64,000 nt of DNA, taken from contig NZ_CP076723.1 in NCBI RefSeq assembly GCF_018986915.1, positions 2,141,501 to 2,205,500 on the forward strand. Reading direction: 5' to 3'. Below the pieces are notes generated by a model that saw only the letters and a list, made by a program, of their open reading frames with translations, did no database searches and was not told the DNA's origin. This document shows, one piece after another, positions 34 to 39,404 of this stretch. Every line of letters begins with the position of its first letter. Within the stretch, counting starts at the first letter, position 1. The DNA is from Geomonas oryzisoli. GTDB taxonomy: Bacteria > Desulfobacterota > Desulfuromonadia > Geobacterales > Geobacteraceae. The translations under genes and the position numbers were made by a program.

Positions 34-1026
34 TCAAGCTCCCGCCTCGAACGATGCGCGCAGAAGCTTCAGCCCCTCCTGCGTCGAGATGCGGGGGGTA
101 TAGCCGAGGTCCCTGCGGGCAGCGGAGATATCGAACCAGTGGGACGTGGCCAGTTCCTTGGCGACGAAGCGGGTCATGGGAGGCTCGCCGGAAAGCCTGA
201 GCGTCTTCCAGGCGACCTCGCAGGCGACGCCGGCGGCATAAGCGACTCCGGCCGGAATGGTGCGGGTGACCGGCGGGACACCGGCCGCCTCCAGGATCGC
301 GTTCACCATATCCCACAGCGCGATGGGCTCGCCGTTGGAGATGAAGTACGCCTTCCCGGCGAGCGGGGCGTCGGCGGTGAGGCGGTCCGCCGCGTTCAGG
401 TGCGCCTCGGCGGCATTCTCCACGTACACGGTGTCGACCAGACAGGTGCGCGTGCCGATGCGCCTCAAGGCGCCGGCGCGTCCCTTGGTGACGATGCGCG
501 GCACCAGGTGGTTGTCGCCCGGTCCCCAGATCAGGTGGGGACGCAACGATACGGTGGACAGGGTGCGCGAGTTGGCGGCAAGGAGCGCCTGCTCCGCGAG
601 CGCCTTGGTGTGCGGGTAATGCGCCTCGAAATGGGTGGGGTAGGGGAGGGACTCGTCGCCCCCCTCGACGTCGGACCCGTCGAAGACGACGCTGGGCGAG
701 CCGGTGTGAACCAGGCGCCGGATGCCTAAGATGCGGCAGGCGGCGATCACGTTCTCGGTGCCGACGACGTTGGCCAGGTAGTACTCCTGGAAGTCACCCC
801 AAATGCCGGCCTTGGCTGCGACATGGAAGATAATGTCGCACCCCTTCGCCGCATCGACCACGGCGTTAAGGTTGGAAAGGTCGCCGCGACGCTGCTCCAC
901 GCCCAGTGCTGCCAGCTCCGGGTACTCGCCACGCGAGAAACTGACCACCTCGTCGCCGCGGGTGCGCAACTGCCTGACGATGGCCGAGCCGAGAAAACCT
1001 CCACCTCCGGTGACTAGCGCGCGCAT
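34..1026 (-). CDS. oleD: OleD, NAD(P)H-dependent 2-alkyl-3-ketoacid reductase
   Basis: This 330-residue protein is an extended short-chain dehydrogenase of the 3-beta-hydroxysteroid dehydrogenase/epimerase type. The N-terminus carries the Rossmann motif TGGGGFLG at about residues 7-14, and a YPHTK sequence near residue 137 supplies the catalytic Tyr-xxx-Lys pair. In the Ole pathway OleD reduces the 2-alkyl-3-ketoacid made by OleA to the 2-alkyl-3-hydroxyacid. It is the last gene of the olABCD series on this strand and its ATG lies inside the 3' end of oleC (13-base overlap), so the two are translationally coupled. The family alone is broad; the assignment rests on the oleA, oleB and oleC neighbours. 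Confidence 0.9.
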   Translation of the reverse strand: MRALVTGGGGFLGSAIVRQLRTRGDEVVSFSRGEYPELAALGVEQRRGDLSNLNAVVDAAKGCDIIFHVAAKAGIWGDFQEYYLANVVGTENVIAACRILGIRRLVHTGSPSVVFDGSDVEGGDESLPYPTHFEAHYPHTKALAEQALLAANSRTLSTVSLRPHLIWGPGDNHLVPRIVTKGRAGALRRIGTRTCLVDTVYVENAAEAHLNAADRLTADAPLAGKAYFISNGEPIALWDMVNAILEAAGVPPVTRTIPAGVAYAAGVACEVAWKTLRLSGEPPMTRFVAKELATSHWFDISAARRDLGYTPRISTQEGLKLLRASFEAGA

Positions 1027-2663
1027 TTAAGGGTCTCCGCGGCCCAGACCGCCAGCTTCTCCCTGAAGATCTTGGCGTTGTGCCGGATATCCACCGGGAA
1101 GGCGGGGTGGAACAGGATGGTTTCGATGGAGCGGGTGTGGATATGCTCTTCTGCCAGCGTTTTCAGCTCCGTGCGCACCTGCTCCTGGTCGACCTTGACG
1201 TTCTTCTCCAGTTCGATGCAGATCACCGGAGTGAGGGCGCCCGGCTCGCCAACGCCCACCAGGGCGCTGCGGAACACGGCGGGATGCGTGTTGAAGACGG
1301 CCTCGCACGGGATGGTGTAGAGCGGGCCGCCCTCGGTCTCGACGCGATGGGACTTGCGGCCGCAGAACCAGACGCGACCATCTTCGTCCCTGCCGCCCAG
1401 ATCGCCCATGCGGTGAAAGAAGGAACCGGTGGCCGGATCGATGATCTTGGAGAGGTGGTCCGATTCCGGACGGTTGTAGTAACCGCGGGTCACCTGCTCT
1501 CCCTGCACCACGATCTCGCCGATCTTTCCCGTTGGGACGCGCAATTCGTCATCCCAGCCATAGATGGGGTTGTCGGTGATCTGGATGATCTCCAGACGGA
1601 TCCCTTCGACCGGGCGCCCCACGCAGACCCCGCCACCTGCGTCAGTGATCTTGCGGGTTTCCTCAAGGATCTCGGTGCTGCCGATGGAACAGACCGGGAG
1701 CGCCTCGGTAGCGCCGTAGGGGGTGAACACCTGCACGCCCGGATTGAGAAGGCTCGTGAAACGCTCCAAAACGGAGGCCGGGACCGGCGCACCGGCGGAG
1801 ATGGCGCGGCGCAGGGTCGGGAGTTTGATGCCGTGCTCGACGCCGTAGCGTCCCACCCGGTTGATGAGGGCGGGGGAACCGAACATGGTGGTCACGCCGT
1901 ATTCGTTGATAGGCCCCACGATCTTGCGCGGATCGACCGAACCGGGGCGGGTGAAGTCCATCTCCGGGATCACCGCGGTCATGCCGAGCGCCGGGGCGAA
2001 CAGGGCGAAAAGCGGGAAGGTGGGGAGATCGATCTCGCCCGGTTCGATGCCGTAGACCTCTTTAAGCGCCTTGACCTGCGCGGAAAAGTTCCCGTGGCTG
2101 TAGATCGCCCCCTTGGGGATGCCGGTGCTGCCGCTGGTAAAGAGGATCGCCGCGACGTCGTCCTTCTGGGTCGGAGCGAGCGTGAAGGGGGAATCGTCCT
2201 GCTGCTCGGCGATGATCTTCGCGAGCGTGGTCCCCTCCCAGAACAGGCGCGGTCCGACGGTGACACAGGTGCGGATGGTTTCTTTCCCCCAGCCAAAGAG
2301 CTTGCGCGCTATGTGCGCCTTGGGGATGCCGATGAAGGCGTGCGGTTCCGCCTCGGAGAAACACTGCTTCAGGTTCTTGATCCCGAGCCCCGGGTCGATG
2401 AGTACCGGCACCGCACCCACCTTGAACAGGGCGAAGGTGAGGGCGAAGAACTCCGGGCTCGGCGTCACCATGAGCACAGTGCGTACGCCGCTGCAGATGC
2501 CGTTGGCGATCAACCCGCGCGCGATCTTATCGCTCAGGCCGTTCAGCTCGGAGAAGGTGAGGCTCCGCTTCCCCCTGGGGAAGATGATCGCCCTGGTGTC
2601 CGGCTGGCGCCTAGCCATCTCGGGCAGGTGCGCAGCTATGTTGACGAATTGGGTCTCGGACAT
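1014..2663 (-). CDS. oleC: OleC, AMP-dependent beta-lactone synthetase
   Basis: This 549-residue protein belongs to the ANL superfamily of adenylate-forming enzymes. The P-loop-like motif LFTSGSTGIPKG is near residues 173-184, and a GYYNRPESD segment followed by RMGDLGG marks the hinge region. OleC enzymes adenylate the 2-alkyl-3-hydroxyacid and cyclise it to a beta-lactone rather than joining it to CoA. The start ATG at 2663 lies 4 bases past the oleB stop, and the 3' end overlaps oleD. An ordinary acyl-CoA ligase would look similar, but the fixed neighbourhood of oleA, oleB and oleD makes OleC much the better call. Confidence 0.9.
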   Translation of the reverse strand: MSETQFVNIAAHLPEMARRQPDTRAIIFPRGKRSLTFSELNGLSDKIARGLIANGICSGVRTVLMVTPSPEFFALTFALFKVGAVPVLIDPGLGIKNLKQCFSEAEPHAFIGIPKAHIARKLFGWGKETIRTCVTVGPRLFWEGTTLAKIIAEQQDDSPFTLAPTQKDDVAAILFTSGSTGIPKGAIYSHGNFSAQVKALKEVYGIEPGEIDLPTFPLFALFAPALGMTAVIPEMDFTRPGSVDPRKIVGPINEYGVTTMFGSPALINRVGRYGVEHGIKLPTLRRAISAGAPVPASVLERFTSLLNPGVQVFTPYGATEALPVCSIGSTEILEETRKITDAGGGVCVGRPVEGIRLEIIQITDNPIYGWDDELRVPTGKIGEIVVQGEQVTRGYYNRPESDHLSKIIDPATGSFFHRMGDLGGRDEDGRVWFCGRKSHRVETEGGPLYTIPCEAVFNTHPAVFRSALVGVGEPGALTPVICIELEKNVKVDQEQVRTELKTLAEEHIHTRSIETILFHPAFPVDIRHNAKIFREKLAVWAAETLKCAR

Positions 2664-2666
2664 GGG

Positions 2667-3569
2667 TCAGGCCGTCTCCCGGGTCTCGGTCTGCTGCATA
2701 AATTGGACGATGAGCGGCACCACTTCCTCTTTCATGTCTTCCAGCACGTAGTGGCCGGCGTCGGGGTAGCTTTTCACCTGTGCCTTGGGGAAGCGGCGCT
2801 GCCATTCGGCGAGGAAGGTGGTGTCGAACACAAAGTCGAGCTCGCCCCAGAAGATGGCCATGGGGAGGTCGCGGAAGCGATCCAGCCCGTCGGCGATCTC
2901 GCTCACCAGCTCGTAGCCGCGGTCGCCGGGCGCCAGCGGGATGTCCTGCACGAAGCGCAGCGTGGCGATGCGGTTCTGCCAGGAGTCGTAGGGGGCGCGG
3001 TAGGCCTGCATCAGCTCCTGCGACATCGGGTTCTTCTTGCAGCCGACGATTGAGGCGCCGACGCTGAAGGCATTGAAACCGCGCACCAAAAGGGTTCCCA
3101 GCAGCGTGTCGCGGCAGATCTTCAACCCCAGCGGGAAGGTCTTCTCCTTGGGAAGGTGGAAGGCCGCGGTATTGAGGACCACGATGCGGCCGATGCGCTC
3201 GGGGTGGCGGCTCGCGTACCCCATGCCGATCATCCCGCCCCAGTCGTGCACCACCAGGGTGATCTTCCCCTGCAGATCGAGGGAATCGATGAGGCGCTCC
3301 AGATCGTCGATGCGGCGGGAGAGGGTGTAGTCGTAGTGGTCGTCGCCGGGCTTGTCGGAGAAGCCGCAGCCGATGTGATCCGGCACGATGCAGCGGTAGT
3401 TGTCGCGCAGCGCCAGCACCAGGTTTCGGTAGTAGATAGACCAGGACGGGTTGCCGTGCACCATGACCACCGGCGCGCCGGTCCCTTCGTCCAGGTAGTG
3501 GTACGAAAGGCCGTCGAGGTCGAGGGTGCGGCCGGTGAAGGGATAGTAGTTTTTCACGGCGTCTCTCAC
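2667..3569 (-). CDS. oleB: OleB, beta-lactone decarboxylase (alpha/beta hydrolase)
   Basis: This 300-residue alpha/beta hydrolase is of the haloalkane-dehalogenase type. An oxyanion-side HGNPSW motif lies near residue 36, a nucleophile elbow VVHDWGGMIG near residues 103-112 has Asp as nucleophile, and a C-terminal DAGHY supplies the His. OleB decarboxylates the beta-lactone from OleC to the final cis-olefin. The open frame runs further upstream, but that part is a shadow of oleA. I chose the GTG at 3569, which overlaps the oleA TGA stop in a GTGA arrangement and gives the usual family length. OleB and OleC are separate here, not fused as in some actinobacteria. Confidence 0.9.
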   Translation of the reverse strand: MRDAVKNYYPFTGRTLDLDGLSYHYLDEGTGAPVVMVHGNPSWSIYYRNLVLALRDNYRCIVPDHIGCGFSDKPGDDHYDYTLSRRIDDLERLIDSLDLQGKITLVVHDWGGMIGMGYASRHPERIGRIVVLNTAAFHLPKEKTFPLGLKICRDTLLGTLLVRGFNAFSVGASIVGCKKNPMSQELMQAYRAPYDSWQNRIATLRFVQDIPLAPGDRGYELVSEIADGLDRFRDLPMAIFWGELDFVFDTTFLAEWQRRFPKAQVKSYPDAGHYVLEDMKEEVVPLIVQFMQQTETRETA

Positions 3570-4612
3570 CAGTCCACTCCCAGCATCAGACAGTTGAGCC
3601 CGCTCCCGATGCCCAGCAGGGCCACCCGGTCGCCGGCGGAAAGGATGTCGCGCTCGTCCGCCAGCGCGGCGGTCAGCGGCAGGGAAACGGTCCCCATGTT
3701 CCCCAGGAACTCGTAGCTGGTGAAGTCCTTGTGCAGGGGGATGCCCAGCGTCTTCAGGATGGCGCTCTGGTGCGCGCTCCCGACCTGGTGACACACCACG
3801 CGGTCCACGTCGGTTTCCCTCCAGCCCACTTCGGGGAGGAATTCGTCCCAGGTGCGTCGACCCAGTTCCACGCCGAAGTTCATGACGCTCACCGCGTCGG
3901 TGCTCATGGACTGCTCGTACCCGCCCTTGCCGTCGGGGGTGATGCCCCACAGGCACAGGCCATGGTGTTCCGGCGCAGCCTGGGTGATGCCGCCGCGCAG
4001 CCGCCTGCGGCCGGACTTGGAGAAGGAGCCGTCGGTGAGGAGCACCGCAACCGCGCCCGAGCCGCCGGTGAGGGTGGCCAGCGAACTGGCGAAGTTCTCC
4101 ATGCTGCGGTCCTCCAGCATCTTCGCGATCATGACGTCGTTGATGTCGCGCGCGCTCTCGCAGGAGACCACCAGGCCGGCGCGGATCTGTCCGAGCTCGA
4201 TGCGGTTGGCCACCTCCAGGATGCCGTTGAGGACTCCCAGGCAGGCGTTGGAGAGGTCGAAGATGGCCGCGTTGCCGGAAACACCGAGGCCCGCGGCGAC
4301 GCGGCAGGCGGTGGCCGGTTCGAAGCGTTCCCGGCAGACGCCGGTGTAGAGCAGGGCGCCGATCTCGTTGGGGGAGATGCCGGCGGACGCCAGCGCCTTC
4401 TTGCCGGCCGCGATGGCGCCCTTGGAGAGCTGGAAGCCGGGTTCCCACCAGCGGCGTTCGCGGATTCCGGTCAGCGCCTGGAGTTGACCGGGCGTGAAGT
4501 GCAGCGTCTTGTAAAGCGGCTCCAGCCGCGCCTCGAGCTCATCCGAGGTGACCACCACCGGAGCGAGCTCGTAACCGAAAGATTCGATATATACCTTGGA
4601 ATACTTCATCAA
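3566..4612 (-). CDS. oleA: OleA, head-to-head acyl-CoA condensing thiolase-fold enzyme
   Basis: This 348-residue protein has the FabH/thiolase fold. The nucleophile Cys124 sits in SNACLGVLNG, His275 in VCHQVG and Asn305 in LGNMGTVS. Glu98 in RFEPATAC occupies the place of the glutamate that OleA supplies across the dimer and that plain FabH lacks. OleA joins two long acyl chains by a Claisen condensation to a 2-alkyl-3-ketoacid. The start has an AAGGTG ribosome site six bases upstream. It follows pfaC on the same strand after a 205-base gap, so polyunsaturated chains from the Pfa complex are its likely substrates. Confidence 0.93.
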   Translation of the reverse strand: MMKYSKVYIESFGYELAPVVVTSDELEARLEPLYKTLHFTPGQLQALTGIRERRWWEPGFQLSKGAIAAGKKALASAGISPNEIGALLYTGVCRERFEPATACRVAAGLGVSGNAAIFDLSNACLGVLNGILEVANRIELGQIRAGLVVSCESARDINDVMIAKMLEDRSMENFASSLATLTGGSGAVAVLLTDGSFSKSGRRRLRGGITQAAPEHHGLCLWGITPDGKGGYEQSMSTDAVSVMNFGVELGRRTWDEFLPEVGWRETDVDRVVCHQVGSAHQSAILKTLGIPLHKDFTSYEFLGNMGTVSLPLTAALADERDILSAGDRVALLGIGSGLNCLMLGVDW

Positions 4613-4659
4613 TCACCTTAAGAAACGGAAGCTGGAAAACTTAAAAGCGGAAAGCGTGA

Positions 4660-4714
4660 CCACAGAGGACACGGAGGTCCACAGAGGACACGGAGGTCCA
4701 CAGAGGACACAGAG
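4660..4714. repeat. Tandem 19-bp repeat in the pfaC-oleA gap
   Basis: The unit CCACAGAGGACACGGAGGT occurs twice exactly (4660-4678, 4679-4697) and a third time partly, drifting into CACAGAGAAAAAA. The copies have no spacers. It lies in the only sizeable gap between the Pfa and Ole genes. Confidence 0.9.
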
Positions 4715-4788
4715 AAAAAATTGTAGTTAAAGTCACCACAGCTACCTGTCTGCCACCATGATGGAGAACGGAGAGGAAGACCAACCTC

Positions 4789-4813
4789 GAACGTAGAACG
4801 TAGAACGTTGAAC
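4789..4813. repeat. Short GAACGTA tandem repeat
   Basis: Three successive GAACGTA/GAACGTT heptamers followed by GAAC lie just beyond the 3' end of pfaC. Nothing else is recognisable in this part of the gap. Confidence 0.75.
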
Positions 4814-4817
4814 AGGT

Positions 4818-7800
4818 TTAGCCTCTTTCTATCTGCACGGTGAAGTCGTTCATCTGGTAAATGGCCCGCCCATCCACGTACAGGAAGCCTGCGGCGGTGA
4901 GGATGCGATTGGCGTCATCCACGGCGGTGACCCAGGCCATCACGGTCACTTCCTTGTTGGCCGGCACCACCTGCCCGCGATAGAGCCAGCGGTGCTTGCG
5001 CTCCAGGGCGACGGCCGCGACGGTATCGCCTTCGTTCCACCCCCAGCGCTCGACGGCGGCGAACTTCATCAACTGCAGGAACGATTCCAGCCCCAGGGAA
5101 CCCGGGGTTACCGGATCCTGGTAGAAATGCGCCTTGAAGTACCAATCCTCGCCGACAACGGTCTTGATCCCCCTGAGGTAGCCAAGGCCCGCCGGGCCTC
5201 CGTCCGGGACGTACAGTTCGATCCTGTCGATCATCCTCAGCGTCTTGTCCGGGAAGGGACGCTGCTCGGGGTAGGGGAGGGAACGCCCGCGCCCGGCTTC
5301 CTCGGCACTCGGGATATACGGAGCCGCCTCCCTGATCCCCACCTGGTTGGCCAGCGCTTCCTTGGCGAAGAACCCGAACATGGTTTCGCCTTCGTAGAGC
5401 ACGCCGTGACGGTCGGCGACGGAGAAGTTGAACTCCTGGATGATCATGCCGCCGCTGGTGGCGGCCTTGGTAAGGGTCGCCGTGGCGGTAAGCGTGCCGC
5501 TGTGCGGCGTCACGGGGCGATGCTGGACCGCGGTACCTCCCAGGTTGCGGAAGGAGATATCGGTCGGGCTGGTGAGCGCGGAGCCGACGTAGGCCGCAAG
5601 CCAGCCGCAGGGCTGCAGCGCGGCTTCTAGGAGCACCGCGAAGGGCATGCGCGTCTGACGGTCGGCGGCGAAATACCACTCGTCCACCGGGATGTCGTAC
5701 TGCGCCTCGGCCATGGCGCCCGGCACCATCTGCCACGGCTCGCCCTTGATGCCGGTGACGCGGTCCATGAACTGGAAGGGAGGACCGGGGAGGCGGGCGA
5801 TCTTCCTCTCGCTGTCAAAGACCTTGTAGCGGTCGCCGAACCCTTCGGAAGGATTGCCGTTGCTGTACGCCAGGATCTGCTGCTTGGTGTAGAGCGCGGC
5901 TTTCCGGTCGTATAAAGGTGCCTGCACGCCCTGCGCGGCAGGCGCGGCAAAGCTCAGGGATTGCGCATGTTTGGACTGCCAGAGCTGAAGCAGGGCTTCA
6001 CGCGTCGTACCGGTGAGACGGGCCGACATGTTGGTGATTTCCACGATGGGCTTGCCGTCGGCGTACATGAGTGCGTCGACGATGGCGTACGGTTCCGGCC
6101 GGTAGCCCAGTTCGCGCACGGTCACCTCGTAGGTCACCACCTTGGTGGTCTCCAGTACCTGGCCGCGGCAGCAGAGCTGGCTCGCGACGCCCGGAACCGG
6201 CTGCCACGCGGCGCCGTCGGCCTCCGCCACCCAGCCCAGGCGCAGCAGGAAGATACGCAGCGTGTGCATGCAGCACTCGTACATGAGCGTGCCCGGCATG
6301 ACGCGGTCATCCACGAAGTGACAAGTGATGAACCAGTCATCGGGATGGATGTCCGCTTCGGCGCGGATGAAGCCGAGGCCGCAGCGCCCGCCGTCGGGGA
6401 CCAGTTCCATGACCCGGTGCACCAGCTCCATCCTGCCGCCGGGAAGGGTAAGGGGACGCTGGACCGGGAGACCGGCGAAGAGCGGTCCGAAGCATGCCGC
6501 CAGGTCGCCTCGACGCAGGGCGTCGAGCTGCCGCGCGTCGTAGGATGCGGGCTGCATGGAGACCAGGTACTGCCAGTCCGCGGGGAGCTTTCCGGTGCGG
6601 GGACGCAGGTCGATGGCCCCGCGCACGATCCCCTTGCCGGCGTCCAGCTCCTGTTGGCTGAAGAAGCCGGCGCAGCCGTTGCGCATGGAGAGAAGCGGCT
6701 CCCCGTTCACGGTCGCCTCGAAATGGAACCGGAACAGGTAGGTCTCGCCCTGCCTGAAGAAGCGCTCGATGCGGATATCGTAGTTGATGGTCTCGCCGGG
6801 GGCGGGAAGCTCGCGGTGGAAGGTCACCACGGCGTCCAGGAGCCGGTAGACGGCGAGGCCCTTGGTGATGAAGTCGATGCCGAGATAGCCGGACAGGAAC
6901 AGGTCGGCCTGGCCCGCCTCGACCGCGATGCAGGTCGGTATGCGCCCGCCGTCCAGGTACCAGGCGCCGGGATGCACATCGTGCTGGGTCACCACCCGAC
7001 CGCTGGTCATCGATTTCGGCTCACCCTCGAGCGCCACGATGCGGTGCACGAGCTGCAGCGGCACGTCCGGCAGTCTCACCCTGGTCGGGTAGCTGTCCGC
7101 CTCGGCGAACTCGGGACCGAGCATCTTTGCGACCGACCCGATGGCGAATTCCAGGCACATGTCGTAGTCGTACAGCGCCGGCAGCGCACCGGGGTAGGGT
7201 GCGGGAGCGGGATTCGGTGCCGGAGCCATTCCTGATACTTGGGCTCTTCTCGGTGCTTGAGCCACTCCCGATACCGTAACTGCAGACGGTGCAGCATTAT
7301 CAACCACTGCGCGTGCCTCACGTCCTCCCCTTTGCGAAGGGGAGACAGAGGGGATTTGCACCTCAACCGGTATCCCGGCAGCCAGCATCTGCTGCTGGAT
7401 GGAGATCTGCAGCGCCAGCGTATCGGCGATGGACCGGCTCAGGTCGTTGGCCACTCTGAGGTACGCCTCGTGGGCCTGCTGGTGGGCATCACGCGCGCGG
7501 GCAAAGTCGCCGAGCAGAGGCTGAACCGTACTCTCCTGTGCAGGTATCTGCGACGGGGGGACTGGCTCCGTAGGTGCCTGTCCCCTTTTAGCCTGTCCCT
7601 TTTCTACCCCTTCTTCAGGCGTATTTCGTGCCGTACTTACCTGAACATCTGCGGGTCGGCTTATCGGAGGATTCGGTGTATCCGCAGGCGCTGGGCGGAC
7701 AGGCGTCTGCAGCGGGGAAGCCGCCATCGGCACGGCCGTGGTCTTGGGCGACAGGGGGACTGGCACCTGCGGAGCCAGTCCCCTCTCCGGTGCGAACGGT

Positions 7801-12038: not shown

Positions 12039-12040
12039 GC

Positions 12041-15000: not shown

Positions 15001-18000
15001 TGCCCATGGTCAGTTCAAGCATTTCCGTGGGATAGCCGGTTTTCTCGCTGACGACGTCCAAGAGGGTTTCTGTCACGTTGGAAGGGGGACAGGCACCTGC
15101 GGAGCCAGTCCCCATGCTGGTGACAGCGCTCGCGGTGGCAGTGACGGACACGGCGCCAGCGGCCAGGTGCCCGGCGATATCGCCCAGGGTGCGCAGGGTG
15201 CCCAAGTGCTCGGGGCCGATGGCGGGGGAGCCGGGGAGGCGCTCCTGCAGCGTGGAGAGGATCTCGACGCGCTTGATGGAGTCGATGCCGAGGTCGGAAT
15301 CCATACCCATTTCCAGTTCGAGCATTTCGACGGGGTAGCCGGTTTTCTCGCTCACTACGGCGAGCAGGGTCTCGGTCACGTTGGAAAGGGGACTGGCACC
15401 TGCGGAGCCAGTCCCCGCGTTGGTGGCGGCACTCGCAGTGACTGGTGCGGCGGCAGCGACGGAAGCCATGCCTGCAGAAAGATGACCGGCAATGTCGCCC
15501 AGCGTGCGCAGGGTGCCCAGGTGCTCGGGGCCAATGGCCGGGGAGCCGGGGAGGCGCTCCTGCAGGGTGGACAGGATCTCGACGCGCTTGATGGAGTCGA
15601 TGCCGAGGTCGGAGTCCATACCCATGTCGAGCTCGAGCATCTCCACAGGGTAGCCGGTCTTCTCGCTGATCACGGCGAGGAGGGTTTCGGTTACCTGGGA
15701 AGCGGGGCAGGCCGAAGGGGGACAGGCACCTGCGGAGCCGGTCCCCTGGCTGGCGGCAGCGGCAGGCGCGGCACCAGCGGCGAGATGACCGGCGATGTCG
15801 CCCAGGGTGCGCAGCGTGCCCAGGTGCTCAGGGCCGATCACGGGTGAGCCCGGCAGGCGCTCCTGCAGGGTGGACAGAATCTCCACGCGCTTGATGGAGT
15901 CGATACCGAGGTCGGAGTCCATACCCATATCGAGCTCAAGCATTTCAATGGGATACCCGGTCTTCTCGGAGATGACGGTCAAGAGGGTCTGGGTAATGTG
16001 ACCGGCATCGGCGCCCTTCGCCGCGACAGGGGCCGAAGCGACAGACGCCACAGAGGCGGACGCTGCCGGCGCGGCAGCCACAGGAGCCGGAACGGCCTTG
16101 GCGGCAACCGGAGCAACCGGAGCCGGGGCTGCGGCCACCGGAGCTACGTAGGCAGGCGCCTGGACAGGGGCGGCGACGGGAGCGGCCGGAGCGAATGCGG
16201 TCGGCGCTACCTGCGCGGCCGGAACAACCGGCGCACCCATGATCAGTCGTTGTTGCTGCTCCAGCAGCGTCTGGAAGGTCTTGGCTGCGGCTTCCTGTCC
16301 TTCGAGGAAGCGGCGGTGCAGCAGCGCGGTATCCTCCTGCATTTTCTGCAGGACCGCCATCCCTTCACGAGCCAGGCGCAGCGATTCGTTCAGCGAGGCA
16401 TGAGCAGCGGGCTGGGCAACGGCAGGTTGCGGCTGATACGTCGGCGCTGCGGGCGCGGCAGTCTGATAACCAGCCTGCTGGGGCACCGCTGCTGCGGCCT
16501 GAACCGGAGCGCTGGGAGCGGACATAGCGGCGACCGGTGCCGGAGCCGCGACCACGGCCGGCTTCGGCTGAACCGCCGGTTTCTTCGGCTTCGCCTTGAC
16601 GTAGTTGGCGCCGCACAGCGGGATGGTCAGCGCAGGCTTCTTGCCGGTGGGTGCCGGGGCCGGACGGTGCCCCTCATCCCAAAGGGCGAGGTTCACGCCG
16701 TAACCGAGCACGGCAAGCTGAGCCAGGGTCCTGGCCAGGTCGGCTACGCCGGTACGTTTGCCGGAGGAGGCGTCGATGGCGAAGGCGAGGTGGGGACGTT
16801 TGCCCAGGATGGCCTGCACCAGGCCGGTCAGGCGGTTGCCGGGGCCGACCTCGACGAAGGAGGTAATCCCAGCTGCGTACATCGCCTCGATCTCGGCGAC
16901 GAACTCGACGGGCTTGGCGAGTTGTGCGGCGAGCTGCGCCTTGGCGGCGGCCGTATCGGCCGGGTAGACCGCGGCGGTGGTGTTGGCGTAGACCGGGATC
17001 TTGGCCTGCGGCATATCGATCTTTTCCAGGGCAGCCAGGAACGGCTTGGCGGCATCGGCGACCAGCGCACTATGGAAAGCGGCGGCAACCGGGAGTTCCT
17101 TGCAGGTCAGGTCGAGCCCCCTGAAAACAGCCGCGGCGCGCTTGATCTCGGCGGTGGTGCCGGAAAGGACGGCCTGGGTCGGGGCGTTCCTGTTGGCGAT
17201 CACCAGGTCGAGCTTCTCGGCGGCGACCACCTCGGCGACTTTCTCCAGCGGCGCGGAAACGGCCAGCATGCTCCCCTTGTCGCCGGCACCGGCACCCATG
17301 AGTTGGCCGCGCAAGCGCGACAACTCGTGCAGTGCGCTCTCATCGAGCCTCCCTGCAGCACAGAGGGCGGTGAGCTCACCGTAGCTGTGACCGGCGACGG
17401 CATTCGGCTCCACCCCGAAACTCCGCAGCACGCGCAGGGCGCCGAGGCTGGTCGCCCCGATGGCGGGCTGGGCGGCCTGGGTAGCCCGCAGTTCCTCTTC
17501 CTGTTTGGCGCGGGTAGCCTCGTCGAAAGCGGAAGGGGGATAGATCAGGTCGGAAAGTCTCTTGCGGCCGGCACCGACGAAGCCTTCGTCGGACGCGGCA
17601 ACGGCGTCCAGCACCTGCGGGAAACGGCAGGCGAGGTCGTTGAGCATCCCGGTGTACTGCGAGCCCTGCCCGGGGAACAGCATGCCCAGCTTGCCGGAGG
17701 CATCGCCGCAGGCGTAGTAGGCGCCATCCGGAGTCTGCCACGCGGATTTCGCGTCCTTGTCCAGCATGGCGCGGGCGTTCTTCACCAGGGAGGCGAGGTT
17801 GGTCTTGTTGCGCTCCACGACCAAGGCGAGGCGGCAGGCCGCCTTGGCATCGAACGAGGCGCGGGAAGCAAGGGCCAGGTCGCGCAGCACGCCCCAGGCG
17901 GCATCCGCGGGAACGGAGTCGAGCCTGGCGGCGACAGCGGCGGCATCTGCGCCGGAGAAGGCCAGGATCTGCGTGTTGCCGTCCCAGTCGACAACCTGCT

Positions 18001-19417
18001 TCTTAGGCTGGTACTCCTCGAGGACCACGTGGAAGTTGGAGCCGCCGAAGCCGAAGGCGCTGACCCCGGCGCGGCGCGGCACATCGGGACGGGGGAACCA
18101 GGGACGCTTGCCGGTCGGGAGGTAGAAGGGGGAGTTTTCACCCACCACCACGCTTTGCGGGGTCTGTACCTTGATGGTCGGCGGAATCACCTTGTGGTGC
18201 AGGGCGAGCGCCGCCTTGATCAGGCCCGCGGAACCAGCCGCCGCCTTGGTGTGACCGATCTGCGACTTGACCGAGCCGAGGGCGCACCACGGGTTCTCGG
18301 CCGTGCCGTACACCTCGCGCAGCGCGTTCACTTCAACGGCGTCGCCGACCTTGGTGCCGGTGCCGTGCGCTTCCAGAAGGCCGATACTCTCCGGGGTGAC
18401 GTCCGCATTCTTGTAGGCGTTCAAAAGCGCCTTCTTCTGCCCGGCGGAGCTGGGGGCGTAGATGGCGTCCCCTTTGCCGTCGCTGGAGGAACCGATGCCG
18501 CGGATCACCGCGTAGATCTTGTCGCCGTCGCGCTCCGCATCGGCCAGGCGCTTCAGCACCACGATACCCAGGCCTTCACCAAGGATGGTCCCGTCGGCCG
18601 AGACGTCGAAGGGCTTGGCGTTGCCGGAGGGGGAAAGCGCCGGGGTCTTGCTGAAGCACATGTACATGAAGATGTCGTTGAAGGTGTCGATGCCGCCGCT
18701 CACGACGATATCGGACTTGCCGGACATGAGCTCCATGGAGGCGAGATGCAACGCGCTGAAGGAGCTGGCGCAGGCGGCGTCGACCACGCAGTTGGTGCCG
18801 CCGAGATCGTACTGTTTGCTGATCCTGCCCGCGACCACGTTGCCCAGGAGCCCCGGGAACGAGTTTTCCTGCCAGGGAACGTAGGAATCGGAGATGCGCT
18901 CGACCACGTCTTTCGCGGTTTCCTCGTCGACGCCGGCGTCCTTGAGCGCGGAGCGCCAGACCGGGTGCCCCAGACGGGCCCCCAGCGGGATGACCAGTTC
19001 CAGCGTGCCGGTGACCCCGAGGATTACGGAGACGTTGCTCTTGTCGAAGGCGCGATCGGGGCCGTAGCCGGCATCTTTGAGCGCCTGACCAGCGGCGACC
19101 AGGCCCAGCAACTGGGAGGTGTCGATCGCCTCCAGGACGTTGGGCGGGATGTTGAACTCCATCGGGTTGAAGTCGACGGGAGAGAGGAAGCCGCCGCGGC
19201 GCCCGTAGGTGCGGTCGGGACTCTTCTGATCCTCGTCGTAATAGGCATCCACCGGCCAATGCGTGGAAGGGACTTCGGTGATGGCGTCGACCCCGTCCAC
19301 GATGTTGGCCCAGTAGGCGTTTTTATCCGCTGCTTGCGGGAAGAGGCAACCGATGCCGATGATGGCAAGCTGAGTTCCGTTGCTGGAGACGGCAGGTTTC
19401 AGATCATCAGTTTTCAA
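12041..19417 (-). CDS. pfaA: PfaA-type polyunsaturated fatty acid synthase subunit (KS-AT-5xACP-KR-DH)
   Basis: This 2458-residue protein runs: ketosynthase (about 15-450; Cys216 in DAACASS, EAHGTGTKVGD, KSQIGH), malonyl acyltransferase (about 560-880; Ser678 in GHSYGE), an Ala/Pro-rich stretch, five acyl carrier domains, ketoreductase (about 1875-2140; VVITGGGRG, GVVHGAG) and a C-terminal dehydratase-like double hot dog (about 2165-2455). The phosphopantetheine serines in GIDSIKR are Ser1174, 1275, 1380, 1481 and 1587. I chose the TTG at 19417: it overlaps the pfaD stop (TTGA) and has AAGGAG eight bases upstream. The frame stays open 72 codons further, but that part duplicates the pfaD coding region. 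It builds polyunsaturated chains from malonyl units without oxygen. Confidence 0.93.
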   Translation of the reverse strand: MKTDDLKPAVSSNGTQLAIIGIGCLFPQAADKNAYWANIVDGVDAITEVPSTHWPVDAYYDEDQKSPDRTYGRRGGFLSPVDFNPMEFNIPPNVLEAIDTSQLLGLVAAGQALKDAGYGPDRAFDKSNVSVILGVTGTLELVIPLGARLGHPVWRSALKDAGVDEETAKDVVERISDSYVPWQENSFPGLLGNVVAGRISKQYDLGGTNCVVDAACASSFSALHLASMELMSGKSDIVVSGGIDTFNDIFMYMCFSKTPALSPSGNAKPFDVSADGTILGEGLGIVVLKRLADAERDGDKIYAVIRGIGSSSDGKGDAIYAPSSAGQKKALLNAYKNADVTPESIGLLEAHGTGTKVGDAVEVNALREVYGTAENPWCALGSVKSQIGHTKAAAGSAGLIKAALALHHKVIPPTIKVQTPQSVVVGENSPFYLPTGKRPWFPRPDVPRRAGVSAFGFGGSNFHVVLEEYQPKKQVVDWDGNTQILAFSGADAAAVAARLDSVPADAAWGVLRDLALASRASFDAKAACRLALVVERNKTNLASLVKNARAMLDKDAKSAWQTPDGAYYACGDASGKLGMLFPGQGSQYTGMLNDLACRFPQVLDAVAASDEGFVGAGRKRLSDLIYPPSAFDEATRAKQEEELRATQAAQPAIGATSLGALRVLRSFGVEPNAVAGHSYGELTALCAAGRLDESALHELSRLRGQLMGAGAGDKGSMLAVSAPLEKVAEVVAAEKLDLVIANRNAPTQAVLSGTTAEIKRAAAVFRGLDLTCKELPVAAAFHSALVADAAKPFLAALEKIDMPQAKIPVYANTTAAVYPADTAAAKAQLAAQLAKPVEFVAEIEAMYAAGITSFVEVGPGNRLTGLVQAILGKRPHLAFAIDASSGKRTGVADLARTLAQLAVLGYGVNLALWDEGHRPAPAPTGKKPALTIPLCGANYVKAKPKKPAVQPKPAVVAAPAPVAAMSAPSAPVQAAAAVPQQAGYQTAAPAAPTYQPQPAVAQPAAHASLNESLRLAREGMAVLQKMQEDTALLHRRFLEGQEAAAKTFQTLLEQQQRLIMGAPVVPAAQVAPTAFAPAAPVAAPVQAPAYVAPVAAAPAPVAPVAAKAVPAPVAAAPAASASVASVASAPVAAKGADAGHITQTLLTVISEKTGYPIEMLELDMGMDSDLGIDSIKRVEILSTLQERLPGSPVIGPEHLGTLRTLGDIAGHLAAGAAPAAAASQGTGSAGACPPSACPASQVTETLLAVISEKTGYPVEMLELDMGMDSDLGIDSIKRVEILSTLQERLPGSPAIGPEHLGTLRTLGDIAGHLSAGMASVAAAAPVTASAATNAGTGSAGASPLSNVTETLLAVVSEKTGYPVEMLELEMGMDSDLGIDSIKRVEILSTLQERLPGSPAIGPEHLGTLRTLGDIAGHLAAGAVSVTATASAVTSMGTGSAGACPPSNVTETLLDVVSEKTGYPTEMLELTMGMDSDLGIDSIKRVEILSTLQERLPGSPTIGPEHLGTLRTLGDIAGFLGAGSAAAPTAAAVAAPAAPAAPVAPATAAVDHAAVCQALLDVVSDKTGYPAEMLELTMGMDSDLGIDSIKRVEILSALQERLPACPAIGPEHLGTLRTLGDIAAFLAGPAKAAAPVVVEAAAPAASEAAPATAAPVAAASAPAESVAHPIQRSSVVPVVIAESDDDAITIANDGEIWVTDDGSAFAAELCGILLEHGCSVRKINAAQAQQIAPAGKLSGLVICAPVAGTDDLFLENAFRLLKDAAAALGESGRAEGAVCVTVSRLDGAFGFGSGKTLKDPLSGALAGLTKTAAFEWPDVACKAIDLGEFPHPAAAAGAVAIEMLRRGPVEVGLTPEGRFALQTAVLPAAPAPAVPVLDQGDVVVITGGGRGVTAVSALALAKEYHPFLVLLGRSPEPQEEPAWLTGLTDEADIKRAIMQNATGKLHPREIEERYRSVVAGRELRATLTSIAATGAEAIYRSVDIRDQSAMELLLGEIRRAHGPIRGVVHGAGVLADRLIVDKTPEQFQQVYSTKVHGLRALLHATRNDDLKFVALFSSSTGRFGRVGQVDYAVANEVLNKTAQAEARRRSGCHCVSINWGPWDGGMVTPALKKVFASEGIGVIDLAEGGEFLAREISAADAPVEIVAIAQLPEQVTAAAPAAGKSLSLSEAFSLTLTVPEYPFLRSHVLDGKAVLPMAVIVEWLAHGALHGNPGFRFHGFNDLRICKGVVFEDNTPFTVNVMAGRAEKRESFWLVPVELSSPGVNGKTILHARAEIVLATKHPEGIRSIKEIPSTPYAPHEGVIYNNERLFHGPDLHGIEQVDGCSAKGIAASVKGAPAPAKWIRRPLRSSWLTDPLVLDSAFQMMILWSFERFGAGSLPCFAGRYRQFQESFPREGVQVVIRVTSESKHGASADMEFLDRSSGKLVARLEGYECVIDPSLKQAFQRNKLRTVTVVGAA
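15085..15113. repeat. REP-like palindrome between ACP3 and ACP4
   Basis: The arms GGGGACAGGCACC and GGAGCCAGTCCCC are read on the minus strand as linker peptide GTGSAGACP. Confidence 0.88.
15388..15416. repeat. REP-like palindrome between ACP2 and ACP3
   Basis: The arms GGGGACTGGCACC and GGAGCCAGTCCCC are read as linker peptide GTGSAGASP. Both flanks match those of the 15085 copy. Confidence 0.88.
15718..15746. repeat. REP-like palindrome between ACP1 and ACP2
   Basis: The arms GGGGACAGGCACC and GGAGCCGGTCCCC are read as GTGSAGACP. The downstream linker is slightly longer than in the other two copies. Confidence 0.88.
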
Positions 19418-21027
19418 CAAAGGTACTCCTTGATTTGTGCGATTTCGAGGGGGTGCGGTGCGATCTCTTCCAGGCGCAGCTCGATGCCCTGGCTGCGCAG
19501 GAAGTTGGCGCGGGTAAGGTGCGCCGCGCCGTGCAGGATGTTGAGCGCCACCGTGACGATCTTGCGCTCGGCGGCTGCCTCGAGGAAGGAGCCGGCGGCC
19601 CATTCGTTGAAGGCGCCCATGGCGGGGCCGCACCAGACCTGGTAATCCATCTTGCGGGTTTCAACGCCGTCCTTGGCCCAGTGTGCCCCCATGCCGAGGT
19701 ACCAGCGGAAGACCAGCGCCATCTTGTGCTTCGGGTCGCGCTCGCTGCGCTCCACCTGGGAAGGGTCGCGCTTCAAAAAGTAGTCGCGGGTGCCGCGCCA
19801 GATCTCTTCCAGCGGGGCGAGGAACATGGTCTTTTCCAGCTTCTCGCGTTCCGCGGCCGGGATCTCGTCCATGCTGCCGTAGCTGCGGTAGAGCTCGTAG
19901 AGCTTGGCGGCGCGCATGGGGAACATGGTGCCGCGCTTCAGGACCTGCACAGTGACCCCCATCTCGAACATGTCGGCGGCGGGCGCCATGGTGACGTCGG
20001 CCTGGCGGGTGCCGGCCAGCATGCCGCGCACGAGGTCGGAGGTGCCGGACTCGACGCAGGCCTGGTTGACCGAACCGGTCATGACGTAGGCGGCGCCCAT
20101 GGCGAAGGCGGCTGCGGCGGAAGCCGGGGTGGAGACGCCGCCGCCAAGACCCACGCGAAGCTTGCAGTCATAGCCGTACTGGCTCTCCAGCCGTGCGGCA
20201 AGCGAGTTGATGGTCGGGAAGAGGGCCATGGCCGGCCGGTTGTCGGTGTGGCCGCCGGAGTCGGCCTCGGCCGTCACGTCCTGGGCCAGCGGCACATGGG
20301 CTGCGAGCTCGGCCTGCTCGGCGGTGATGGAGCCGTTTTCGACCAGGGCGCGCAGAAGCTTCTCGGGCGCGGGCGCAAAGAACTTCGCCGCCAGCTCCTC
20401 GCGGGACACCTTGGCGATGATCCGGTTCGGGGTGACGATGCTGCCGTCGGCCGCGCGCTTGATGCCGTGCAGGCGGTAGCGCACCAGGGGGAGGGTCAGG
20501 GCGAGAAACGCCGATGCCTCGATGATGCGCACACCCTTGCGGATGTAGAGTTCGGCCAATTCCTTCTCCAGCTCCGGCTCGTGCGGGGAGTGGATCAGGT
20601 TGAAGCCGTAGGGGATGTCGCCCAGGGACTGCTTGAGGCGGTCGGCTGTGTCAGAAACCGTGGAGATGGGAAGGCCGGCTGCGCCGAAGAAACCGAGCAT
20701 CCCGGCACGACCGAGCTCTTCCGCCATGGCGGCGGAGCTGATCCCCTTGGCCATGGAGCCGCCCAGGTACGGGTACCGGATGCCGATCTCGCGGCAGAAG
20801 GAAGGATCGCCCAGGTTTTCAGGGAGACAGGCGGGGGCGTACCCGACGCAGGACTGCACGCTCCCGGCGCCACCAAGTTGGGGGACGAGGTTGCCATCGC
20901 GCTGCACCAGGTACAGGGGGTGGCGTACGACGCGGAGCGCGTCTCTAAGACTCATAACGGCAGGCTCGGAACTCTCGGATTTGGCAGAGCGAGCAGCAGA
21001 CTCGCCCTGAAGTGAAAAAAGATCCAA
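19414..21027 (-). CDS. pfaD: PfaD, trans-acting enoyl reductase of the PUFA synthase
   Basis: This 537-residue flavoprotein belongs to the PfaD branch of the nitronate-monooxygenase-like TIM barrels. Visible landmarks are GYAPACLPENLGDPSFC near the N-terminus, GLGGGVSTPASAAAAFAMGAAYVMTG for phosphate binding, and the family-typical C-terminal CGPAMGAFNEW. It reduces selected enoyl-ACP intermediates during PUFA chain growth, so it decides where double bonds are kept. I chose the TTG at 21027, with AGGAGA seven bases upstream; the frame is open to an ATG at 21102 but without a ribosome site. Its stop overlaps the pfaA start. The 255 bases upstream, back to tesA, could hold the operon promoter, but I see no convincing -35/-10 pair there. 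Confidence 0.9.
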   Translation of the reverse strand: MDLFSLQGESAARSAKSESSEPAVMSLRDALRVVRHPLYLVQRDGNLVPQLGGAGSVQSCVGYAPACLPENLGDPSFCREIGIRYPYLGGSMAKGISSAAMAEELGRAGMLGFFGAAGLPISTVSDTADRLKQSLGDIPYGFNLIHSPHEPELEKELAELYIRKGVRIIEASAFLALTLPLVRYRLHGIKRAADGSIVTPNRIIAKVSREELAAKFFAPAPEKLLRALVENGSITAEQAELAAHVPLAQDVTAEADSGGHTDNRPAMALFPTINSLAARLESQYGYDCKLRVGLGGGVSTPASAAAAFAMGAAYVMTGSVNQACVESGTSDLVRGMLAGTRQADVTMAPAADMFEMGVTVQVLKRGTMFPMRAAKLYELYRSYGSMDEIPAAEREKLEKTMFLAPLEEIWRGTRDYFLKRDPSQVERSERDPKHKMALVFRWYLGMGAHWAKDGVETRKMDYQVWCGPAMGAFNEWAAGSFLEAAAERKIVTVALNILHGAAHLTRANFLRSQGIELRLEEIAPHPLEIAQIKEYLC

Positions 21028-21282
21028 ACGGGATTCTCCTGTTGCCACGAATTTGCAGCGGAGTTGCGATGGCGTAAAGGTACTGAATCGGTAGAAGGAC
21101 AAGGCTCGGGCATAGAGAAGGCAGGTTCACGCATCAGGTCTATTGCAGCAACGAAAGGCGGATCCGGCTGTAAGCAATGGTGCCCAGTTTAACAGAGTAC
21201 GTGTACATTAAATCGTGCAAAAAAGCAAGACAAGACGCGGGTTCAGGGCAACTTTTAACAGTACGGAGGGAGGAGCTGTGGC

Positions 21283-21936
21283 TCATCGACCTCCCTTTTG
21301 TTGGATGGCTTTGAGCAGGTAGGGATAAACGGTCTCTGTGACGATGGTGTACCCAGTGGCGGTAGGATGGACACCGTCCGCCAGGTTGAGGCTCTCCTTG
21401 CCGGCGACCTTGTCCAGGAAGAACGGGACCAGGATCACCTTGTGCTCCTTGGCGACGCGGGGGTAGATGGCGGCGAATTTGGCGGTGTAGGCGGGTCCCA
21501 GGTTCTTCAGCATCCTCATGCCGGCCAGGACCACGACCACGCCCTTGGCCTGCAGGGTGGACACGATCTTGCCGATGTTGCGGTGGGCAAGTTCCGGGTC
21601 CTGACCGCGCAGGCCGTCGTTGGCGCCGGTTTCCAGGATGACGATGTCGGGCTTTAGCTTCATGACCCAGTCGACCCGGGCGAGTGCCCCGGAACTGGTT
21701 TCGCCGCTGATGCCGGCGTTGATGACGGTCCACTGGTAGCCGGCCTGCTGCAGTTTGCGTTGCAACTGGGCGGGGTACGCCTCGGACTCCGGTACGCCGT
21801 ACCCTGCGGTGAGGCTGTCGCCGAAGGCGACGATGGTGCCGTGGCTTGCCGGTTTGGCGGCGCCTGCCGCGAGCACCGGCCCCGCACCGGCCACGGCGCA
21901 GAGAGCGAGGGTGAAGATGGTGAAGAGGTTGCGCAT
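21283..21936 (-). CDS. tesA: TesA-like GDSL arylesterase/lysophospholipase (exported)
   Basis: This 217-residue protein has an N-terminal signal peptide ending near VLAAG (residues 1-25). It carries SGNH-hydrolase blocks: GDSLTAGYG with the nucleophile Ser near residue 41, the Gly of INAGISGET, GAND near residue 109, and DGVHPT with the catalytic Asp and His near the C-terminus. The length and motifs match E. coli TesA/ArE-type periplasmic thioesterase-esterases. The start ATG follows AAAGGAG. It lies downstream of ybbP on the same strand and upstream of pfaD. Because it is exported, direct chain release from the cytosolic Pfa complex is unlikely. Confidence 0.87.
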   Translation of the reverse strand: MRNLFTIFTLALCAVAGAGPVLAAGAAKPASHGTIVAFGDSLTAGYGVPESEAYPAQLQRKLQQAGYQWTVINAGISGETSSGALARVDWVMKLKPDIVILETGANDGLRGQDPELAHRNIGKIVSTLQAKGVVVVLAGMRMLKNLGPAYTAKFAAIYPRVAKEHKVILVPFFLDKVAGKESLNLADGVHPTATGYTIVTETVYPYLLKAIQQKGGR

Positions 21937-21970
21937 GTTTTCTCCTTTGCGGGCAGACCCGGCCGCCGAA

Positions 21971-21999
21971 GGGGACTGGCTCCGAAGGTGCCTGTCCCC
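21971..21999. repeat. REP-like palindrome, ybbP-tesA gap (copy 1)
   Basis: The arms GGGGACTGGCTCC and GGTGCCTGTCCCC lie 35 bases upstream of the tesA start. It is one of two intergenic copies. Confidence 0.88.
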
Positions 22000-22052
22000 C
22001 TCGCTTTTCTGGCTACTCGTCCGGGCCTCTGAAGCGGGCGCCGTAAACCAAA

Positions 22053-22082
22053 GGGGACAGGCACCTTTCGGAGCCAGTCCCC
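22053..22082. repeat. REP-like palindrome, ybbP-tesA gap (copy 2)
   Basis: The arms GGGGACAGGCACC and GGAGCCAGTCCCC sit 3 bases past the ybbP stop, inverted relative to copy 1. The pair (spacing 53 bases) has the head-to-head layout typical of REP doublets. Confidence 0.88.
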
Positions 22083-22085
22083 TTT

Positions 22086-24576: not shown

Positions 24577-24584
<8 letters not shown>
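22086..24584 (-). CDS. ybbP: YbbP-like ABC transporter permease (FtsX/MacB family)
   Basis: This protein of about 832 residues has one N-terminal membrane segment, a large extracytoplasmic region, three to four membrane segments near residues 255-420, more around 440-490, a second periplasmic domain and a final cluster of membrane segments (about 700-830). This duplicated FtsX-domain layout is that of YbbP, partner of YbbA. Such transporters act on lipophilic or envelope substrates, but the substrate is not known. I chose the ATG at 24584 (8-base overlap with ybbA); an ATG at 24605 would add 7 residues. The set ybbA-ybbP-tesA parallels the E. coli neighbourhood, although there tesA is divergent. 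Confidence 0.87.
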
Positions 24585-25257
<673 letters not shown>

Positions 25258-28867: not shown

Positions 28868-28880
28868 CGCCGGGGGAACC

Positions 28881-29375: not shown

Positions 29376-29429
29376 AACCGGTACGGCAGTACGGCGGCAG
29401 GCCATCCTGGATTCGCACCGAGGAAAGAC

Positions 29430-31472: not shown

Positions 31473-31489
31473 GTGCCCCTGGAGCCGGA

Positions 31490-33745: not shown

Positions 33746-33899
33746 CAAGGTGGTGGAGCAGGCTAGAATAAGCGTTTGTTAATTTGCAAAGAAACAGGTT
33801 CTAACCCCTGCCCACGGCAGGCAGCCGAGCAGACGCAAAAACTTCCGAACGCTCGGCTTTTTTTCGGCCGAGGGTCCCGCTGGCGGCGCGGAGAAGCAC

Positions 33900-35881: not shown

Positions 35882-35945
35882 ACTCTTGCGTGGCTTCGTG
35901 ACACGAAAACCCGGGGCGATACCGGCGGCGGACAAGGAGGACGCC

Positions 35946-39401: not shown

Positions 39402-39404
39402 CTG

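Follow-up and report, generated by a model that had tools for sequence, protein, structure and literature searches.

A one-strand pfa-ole gene cluster in Geomonas oryzisoli and its predicted polyene hydrocarbon product

In Geobacter bemidjiensis, a close relative of the organism considered here, the genes pfaD, A, B, C, oleA-D and pfaE lie in tandem, and the bacterium makes a C31:9 hydrocarbon (PMC4882568). A synthase of this kind was named the Type I secondary lipid synthase by Shulse and Allen (2011), who proposed that it has a precursor role for olefins (PMC3098273). Work with Shewanella genes has established that OleA couples the Pfa and Ole pathways in vivo; Photobacterium profundum SS9 also has adjacent pfa and ole sets and yields no detectable hydrocarbon (PMC6463001), so that adjacency alone is no proof of product. 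Because adjacent sets are in print for both P. profundum SS9 and G. bemidjiensis, the arrangement described below is not new, and both the gene order and the product of the close relative have already been described. The available text of the G. bemidjiensis genome paper (PMC2996986) does not mention olefin, polyketide, polyunsaturated, hentriacontanonaene or any pfa gene, and none of the literature matches listed treats the hydrocarbons of Geomonas.

The locus studied here lies at one end of a 64,000-nucleotide stretch of the G. oryzisoli genome (the window, meaning the whole stretch of DNA that was analysed); the genome is a single contig. Open reading frames, translations and domain scans agree with the original prediction of a one-strand series, pfaD-pfaA-pfaC-oleA-oleB-oleC-oleD, with overlapping or near-touching ends (Table 1), and a check of the translations found the catalytic motifs intact. 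The genes overlap by a few bases at pfaD/pfaA, oleA/oleB and oleC/oleD, and are separated by 2 bp at pfaA/pfaC, 3 bp at oleB/oleC and 208 bp at pfaC/oleA. Two parts of the assembly had not been foreseen: a PfaB-type acyltransferase within PfaC, and pfaE, which follows directly past oleD on the same strand and lies almost wholly beyond the window edge (from L004:11306, genome C1 2140806, to about 12028, where the start codon is uncertain). PfaE matches PF01648 with 61.3 bits and has the motifs GVDLE and WTRKEA.

Table 1. Features of the minus-strand cluster (window coordinates)
Feature	Position	Strand	Assignment
pfaD	19414 to 20955 or 21027 (ATG at 20955, or a start further upstream)	-	trans-acting enoyl reductase; TIGR02814, 6lkc
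pfaA	12041 to about 19426	-	KS-MAT-5 ACP-KR-DH-like; TIGR02813
pfaC (pfaBC fusion)	4818-12038	-	KS-CLF-AT-DH; DH part with FabA-like hotdogs
pfaC-oleA gap	4610-4817 (208 bp)		19-bp tandem repeat at 4660-4714
oleA	3566-4609 (ATG start)	-	head-to-head acyl condensing thiolase; NF006720
oleB	2667 to about 3572	-	alpha/beta hydrolase (beta-lactone decarboxylase)
oleC	1014-2663	-	beta-lactone synthetase, AMP-ligase superfamily; NF006754
oleD	34-1026	-	2-alkyl-3-oxoalkanoate reductase (SDR); NF042422
pfaE, first codons	1-30; remainder beyond the window edge	-	Sfp-type phosphopantetheinyl transferase; PF01648

The order of the genes, with pfaE closing the series, is like that of G. bemidjiensis as published, although PMC4882568 names pfaB and pfaC where we find one fused gene. 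The Type I synthase of PMC3098273 resembles this one in its pfaBC fusion and in its mostly deltaproteobacterial hosts (Geobacter, Pelobacter, Desulfuromonas and Gemmata strains, a list from which the present genome is absent). Three features of that type were found here, namely a PfaA with tandem ACPs, a pfaBC fusion with the order KS-CLF-AT-DH, and PfaD together with PfaE. In Shewanella and Photobacterium, PfaB is a separate protein. PUFA of these bacteria also occurs in phospholipids, and a pfaT thioesterase is linked in most (PMC6463001); no Orf6/PfaT hotdog thioesterase was found beside pfa or ole among the scanned neighbour ORFs of Geomonas.

PfaA and PfaD both exceed their cut-offs: 1878.7 bits for PfaA against TIGR02813 and 624 bits for PfaD against TIGR02814, with PfaD 6lkc (E 1.8e-168) and 4yx6 as solved relatives of the latter. 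Each of the five PP-binding stretches of PfaA contains LGIDSI. In PfaC, the KS-CLF part has a solved relative in 6riw ('ORF10'); the KS has its Cys in DAACASS, and the CLF counterpart, TMSSEESS, is without Cys. The middle of the protein (residues 1046-1386) matches the pfaB_fam model TIGR02816 with 102.9 bits, under the cut-off of 144.3, and the AT scores 28.7 bits against Pfam Acyl_transf_1, under the cut-off of 32.7; this PfaB-type domain keeps SYSLG (Tyr-Ser) and TVHC (His). The DH part has two HF..D.V.PG hotdog motifs.

On the Ole side, OleA exceeds the cut-off of NF006720 with 499.5 bits, and its catalytic triad, C123-H274-N304, is kept in all 57 aligned OleA sequences. Its best solved relatives (E about 1e-55; 3fk5, 3row and others) are titled '3-oxoacyl-ACP synthase III', and we take them to be Xanthomonas-type OleA. 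OleC is over the cut-off of NF006754 (792.5 bits) and under those of two olefin beta-lactone synthetase models (685-687 bits, cut-offs 850 and 900). OleD, with the motifs GGGGFLG and YPHTK, scores 464 bits against NF042422, under the cut-off of 580. OleB matches Abhydrolase_1 and is haloalkane dehalogenase-like, with HGNP, VHDWGG and DAGHY motifs; its matches include no olefin-specific model. The OleABCD gene set is thus complete, with motifs present in OleB, OleC and OleD. Given the domain scores and the conservation across dozens of genomes described below, the cluster is not a chance find.

Signals between the genes are less informative. No terminator-like site was found in the pfaC-oleA gap, and its RNA fold is not unusual (z -0.83). 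A sigma-70 scan of positions 3000-22000 gave 0 promoter-like sites against 1.4 expected, and terminator-like sites in the same scan were at chance level (10 against 10.9 expected). Nothing about operon structure can therefore be deduced from these scans.

The two halves of the cluster are inherited together. Among 141 Geobacterales genomes, pfaD occurs in 95 and oleA in 91; both are present in 90 and both absent in 45, and in the six genomes with one alone the gene lies beside a contig end. The original prediction called for a comparison of this neighbourhood in related genomes; in that comparison the 66 pairs (of 90) that share a contig all have the same strand and order, with pfaD and oleA 12.8-15.2 kb apart. 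The other 24 pairs are split over two contigs, 22 of them in a way that fits a contig break. At the cut-offs used, oleC was found in 94 genomes, oleD in 91 and oleB in 90. Two MAGs rated 99% complete (G012 and G085) have pfaD without any of the four ole genes at these cut-offs; in both, pfaD is 3.3 kb from a contig end, and their ole genes were likely lost in binning.

Of 46 loci drawn from several phyla, 42 have PfaC upstream of oleA, while the positions of oleC/oleD and pfaE vary. In G297, which is outside the Geobacterales, pfaD is 1.1 Mb from oleA. Insertions of about 10 kb in G014, and of 3.5 and 4.9 kb in two Elusimicrobia loci, separate pfaC from oleA; the inserted genes look unrelated, as judged by eye from their translations. 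In a tree of OleA sequences, those from Pfa loci form one group with support of 100/100, and 12 fall outside it, nine from pfaD-free genomes and three distant. Residues characteristic of the group include G182 (Ile/Leu in the 12 outside sequences), W221 (mostly Gly there), G90 (Ser) and C150 (mostly Gly); no literature match listed treats these residues. The OleA of Xanthomonas campestris condenses saturated and unsaturated chains (PMC7064751, which mentions neither Geobacter nor Shewanella nor polyunsaturated). It matches the Geomonas protein over its whole length and shares the C-H-N triad, but inspection of the alignment by eye shows Ser opposite G90, Gly opposite C150, Leu opposite G182 and no residue, only a gap, at W221.

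These distributions bear on whether the two gene sets are simply independent neighbours, with Pfa making PUFA, Ole using ordinary fatty-acid-synthase chains, and proximity reflecting chance or shared regulation. The OleA of other bacteria does condense saturated, monounsaturated or branched chains (PMC6463001). However, the recurrent place of PfaC upstream of oleA, the rarity of genomes with one gene alone beside those lacking both, the separate grouping of OleA from Pfa loci, and the C31:9 of G. bemidjiensis (PMC4882568) all argue against independence, which we regard as extremely improbable.

We conclude that the locus very probably encodes a Type I (Geobacter-type) Pfa-Ole line making C31:9 or a close homologue as a long, most likely membrane-located hydrocarbon, with a synthase that serves the Ole pathway mainly or only; for the Geomonas strain itself, product and exclusivity are predictions. 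In the mechanism we propose, PfaE would arm the five ACPs of PfaA, and PfaA, PfaC and PfaD would assemble a polyunsaturated chain with methylene-interrupted double bonds by iterative, oxygen-independent synthesis, a mode established for the Pfa family. The chain, most likely C16:4, would then pass from the synthase to OleA, and the PfaB-type AT inside PfaC may offload it, directly or via an acyl-enzyme step. OleA would join two chains head to head, in keeping with the coupling obtained with Shewanella genes. Keto acid reduction by OleD, beta-lactone formation by OleC and decarboxylation by OleB would follow, to give the C31:9 polyene known from G. bemidjiensis, hentriacontanonaene, or a close homologue. 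The synthase would serve the Ole pathway mainly or only in these bacteria generally.

The enzyme steps are shared with the pfaA-E and oleABCD genes of Shewanella and Photobacterium (PMC6463001). A dual use as in Shewanella would have the synthase make phospholipid PUFA as well as the OleA chain, so that two products would result, one of them the hydrocarbon. One Pfa synthase of Shewanella does give both EPA and C31:9 (PMC6463001). Moreover, the final PUFA of marine bacteria is set by PfaB, which depends on a Tyr adjacent to the catalytic Ser (PMC12895367), and this Tyr-Ser is kept in 30 of the 33 PfaC rows with the AT matched, that of the window included. Nevertheless, we consider dual use unlikely. 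Five relatives, four Geomonas strains and G. bemidjiensis, have no polyunsaturated acid in Table 3 of PMC6773877, although that table reports only acids of at least 0.5% in at least one strain, identified against standards, and has three unidentified peaks, so that a minor PUFA could be missed. Finally, 135 of the 141 genomes have pfaD and oleA either both present or both absent, a pattern that is not called for by a separate PUFA role. The original prediction of a single dedicated Pfa-to-Ole hydrocarbon line is thus backed by co-inheritance (90 genomes with both and 45 with neither, of 141), by the gene order and C31:9 of G. bemidjiensis, by OleA coupling and by a table in which no polyunsaturated acid is listed; that the strain lacks free PUFA is what we infer.

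It is also conceivable that, in this species or in certain relatives, the pathway stops early or leads to a different lipid, for instance a polyene ketone or a beta-lactone. In several genera oleC/oleD and pfaE do lie away from the core; G124, for example, has oleB 10.5 kb and oleC 273 kb from oleA. However, oleB, oleC and oleD are all found elsewhere in the G124 genome, and the window has all four ole genes adjacent with their motifs kept. An early stop is accordingly quite improbable, and a complete line to the polyene hydrocarbon is preferred.

What this analysis adds is comparative: order-wide co-inheritance counts, a synthase-OleA junction that persists from phylum to phylum, and OleA residues that are candidates for determining polyene choice. 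A wider proposal, which we put forward tentatively and stop short of favouring, is that a Pfa system making hydrocarbon only has spread over several phyla, with the pfaC-oleA junction as its conserved unit. In it, a separate, residue-marked group of OleA may take the polyene straight from the Pfa ACPs, via the PfaB-type domain captured in PfaC and without a free PUFA pool. If the junction reflects such a direct hand-off, these anaerobes would offer a clean system for the commitment of a Pfa synthase to one product, and also for the role of polyene hydrocarbons in strict anaerobes, for which an antioxidant idea is speculative in the words of PMC4882568 itself.

The scanned ORFs flanking the cluster consist of a GDSL esterase, an FtsX permease and a YhaV-type gene, besides ORFs that matched no family. 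The TesA-like GDSL gene upstream of pfaD was considered as a release enzyme and rejected; a match was located no more than about 5 kb from pfaD in 3 of 20 sampled genomes (L108, L110 and L112), and the gene is therefore outside the conserved unit. A search for the 4HBT_2 family located three genes in the genome, each at a distance of over 100 kb from the cluster.

The window occupies positions 2,141,501–2,205,500 of a genome made up of a single contig of 4,846,465 bases. Its OleA is closest to those of Geomonas spp. (95–97% identical) and Citrifermentans bremense (93%) among named relatives, which makes the source a Geomonas-like representative of the Geobacterales. Open reading frames, translations and domain scans all give the minus-strand order pfaD, pfaA, pfaC, oleA, oleB, oleC and oleD, as had been claimed in the original prediction. 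The catalytic motifs sought in these proteins were all present. The ketosynthase Cys is present in both PfaA and PfaC, and the same check found the malonyl-type acyltransferase (MAT) Ser and His, five ACP serines, the ketoreductase and dehydratase (DH) motifs and two hotdog His motifs. OleA keeps its catalytic triad, and the nucleophile and His of OleB, the loop of OleC and the Tyr-Lys of OleD were all found. The TMSSEESS motif of the chain-length factor (CLF) has no Cys, which is what is expected of a CLF at that motif. Judged by its sequence, the enzyme set is complete, with its motifs.

Two components go beyond the predicted gene list. A phosphopantetheinyl transferase gene, which is the expected pfaE, lies directly after oleD on the same strand, just past the window edge. 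No stand-alone pfaB was found in the cluster; an acyltransferase (AT) of the PfaB kind is located within PfaC, with the CLF on one side and the DH part on the other. This domain scores 102.9 bits against pfaB_fam, below the cut-off of 144.3, and retains the Tyr adjoining the catalytic Ser that the text of PMC12895367 reports as essential in PfaB. Among the 33 PfaC rows with a matched AT, the window's own counted in, 30 have Tyr-Ser and three, all from Planctomycetota, have Phe-Ser; the MAT of PfaA itself has His-Ser at the same place. In eight Geomonas-type rows, the window's included, the first Gly of GxSxG is replaced by Ser.

Pfa enzymes build polyunsaturated chains without oxygen, and OleA catalyzes a head-to-head condensation that is followed by the action of OleD, OleC and OleB. 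In the proposed line, the Pfa synthase would produce C16:4 chains that pass directly from ACP to OleA, the fused AT of PfaC would have a role, and the end product would be hentriacontanonaene (C31:9). The C16:4 chains are likewise termed predicted in PMC6463001. For four Geomonas strains and Geobacter bemidjiensis, a species assigned to Geomonas itself in the same text, no polyunsaturated acid is among the printed fatty acids of at least 0.5% (PMC6773877); as a weak negative, the lists for these five relatives agree with a hydrocarbon fate. The original prediction of a dedicated Pfa-Ole hydrocarbon line is supported, with C31:9 as the putative product.

Much of this is already in print. PMC4882568 describes a tandem arrangement of pfaD, A, B, C, oleA-D and pfaE in Geobacter bemidjiensis, together with production of the C31:9 hydrocarbon by that species. 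The text of PMC3098273 defines the Type I synthase of Geobacter and its relatives, which has a pfaBC fusion, and suggests it as a supplier of olefin precursors; coupling of the two pathways by OleA was shown in PMC6463001 using Shewanella genes. The latter text also notes that in Photobacterium profundum SS9 the pfa and ole sets adjoin, yet hydrocarbon was undetectable in that strain. Published texts already cover the gene arrangement, the olefin idea and what a close relative makes, and what is new here is modest and comparative.

A search of 141 Geobacterales genomes detected pfaD in 95 of them and oleA in 91. The two genes occur together in 90 genomes and 45 yielded neither, while five gave only pfaD and one only oleA. 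In all six lone-gene genomes, a contig end is nearer than the usual pfaD-oleA spacing. In three of the five pfaD-only genomes (G100, G112 and G126), contigs other than that of pfaD carry oleC and oleD; in the other two (G012 and G085) no ole genes were found at the cut-offs used for oleA, oleB, oleC and oleD, and these are possible true exceptions to co-occurrence. One further genome, G010, yielded neither pfaD nor oleA; its oleB, oleC and oleD are present on a contig that starts inside oleB. The pfaD and oleA genes share a contig in 66 of the 90 genomes that have both, with strand and order identical in all 66 and a spacing of 12,834–15,172 bp. A contig break fits 22 of the other 24. The two that it does not explain, G014 and G015, come from a single genus. 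In G014 an insertion separates the end of pfaC from oleA, which is 10 kb away on the same contig; in G015 no PfaC match was found in the 8.5 kb preceding oleA, and a different contig carries a complete pfaC.

The positions of oleC, oleD and pfaE vary. Of 20 genomes picked from the 66 to sample genera (a contig end cuts two of the stretches), 19 have oleB after oleA in the fetched stretch, 14 have the start of oleC no more than about 7 kb downstream of oleA, and eight have pfaE after oleD. G001 has oleC and oleD upstream of pfaD on the opposite strand, and in the single-contig genome G124 oleA is 10.5 kb from oleB and 273 kb from oleC. A PfaC match occurs in the fetched 300 bp upstream of oleA in 17 of the 20, ending within 11 bp of oleA in nine. 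Because PfaC nearly abuts oleA in many relatives, the window's gap of 208 bp, which contains a 19-bp tandem repeat, is a wider form of that junction.

The junction extends to other phyla. Among 46 OleA loci of named genomes, biased to close kin because they were picked by likeness to the window OleA, 42 carry, upstream of oleA and on its strand, a stretch that matches the C-terminal half of PfaC, including loci from Elusimicrobia, Planctomycetota, Sumerlaeota and Desulfobacterales. In 36 of the 42, no more than 350 bp separate the end of the match from oleA; the other six comprise insertions in L028 and L029, 623 bp in L032, and three loci (L006, L018 and L034) where the actual gap may be smaller, since the match ends well inside PfaC. 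In several Desulfobacterales loci the adjoining match spans the DH part only. In L023, L025, L033 and L036 no PfaC match was found in 0.8–8.5 kb of upstream sequence.

Pfa-associated OleA proteins also form a separate group. Of 297 genomes drawn from the phylum, 30 gave an OleA hit and 24 a PfaD hit at E <= 1e-40, five having PfaD without OleA. Outside the order, PfaD is present in 8/8 genomes with an OleA at least 52% identical to that of the window and in 4/15 with an OleA at most 48% identical. For those eight, pfaD and oleA share a contig in G314 (13.8 kb apart), G367 (15.9 kb) and G297 (1.1 Mb), and are on separate contigs in the remaining five. An OleA tree with 57 sequences (the window's, 36 of the 46 named loci and 20 of the 23 phylum hits from outside the order; midpoint-rooted for drawing only) contains one group of 45 with support of 100/100, 43 labelled pfa and two (L033 and L036) unlabelled. 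Loci were labelled by the upstream PfaC match, except L025, by a pfaC elsewhere in its genome, and phylum genomes by the PfaD search. The 12 outside the group are nine OleA from pfaD-free genomes and three distant ones from pfaD-bearing genomes. At 15 sites, G90, C150, G182 and W221 among them, the residue is common to at least 95% of the group and at most a quarter of the others; by manual count on the alignment with the Xanthomonas OleA, G182 is opposite a Leu that immediately precedes a conserved Gly-x-Gly in that protein.

Additional features in the window and in comparison sequences
Sequence	Position	Strand	Feature
Window	21283-24605	-	TesA-like GDSL esterase and FtsX-type permease, before pfaD on its strand
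Window	about 21969-22084		sequence of ~32 bases present as two inverted copies between permease and esterase genes (by eye)
Window	27725-41519 and 51575-62842		numerous histidine kinases and PAS/GAF proteins; one response regulator-PAS-GGDEF-EAL protein
Window	42144-49383	+	beta-oxidation-like run (AMP-binding acyl-CoA ligase, 3-hydroxyacyl-CoA dehydrogenase/enoyl hydratase, thiolase, acyl-CoA dehydrogenase), at a distance of about 21 kb from pfaD
Window	50521-51225	-	FadR-type GntR regulator gene, after the run
L004 (left of window)	9919-11179	+	YhaV-type toxin gene (PF11663), heading toward the cluster end
L149 (G014)	1130-11185		pfaC-oleA insertion, Geobacterales
L028	318-5189		pfaC-oleA insertion, Elusimicrobia
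L029	6532-10001		pfaC-oleA insertion, Elusimicrobia
G050, C1	3670994-3672346		second PfaD-like gene

The GDSL esterase is near pfaD in only three of the 20 sampled genomes. The beta-oxidation-like run is followed by a histidine kinase and the FadR-type regulator gene. In L004 an ORF without a Pfam family immediately precedes the toxin gene, and both Elusimicrobia insertions start with an ORF resembling a REP-associated transposase (named by eye). The second PfaD-like gene of G050, a relative, is 45% identical, lies in a 798-codon open frame and may belong to a further Pfa or PKS cluster.
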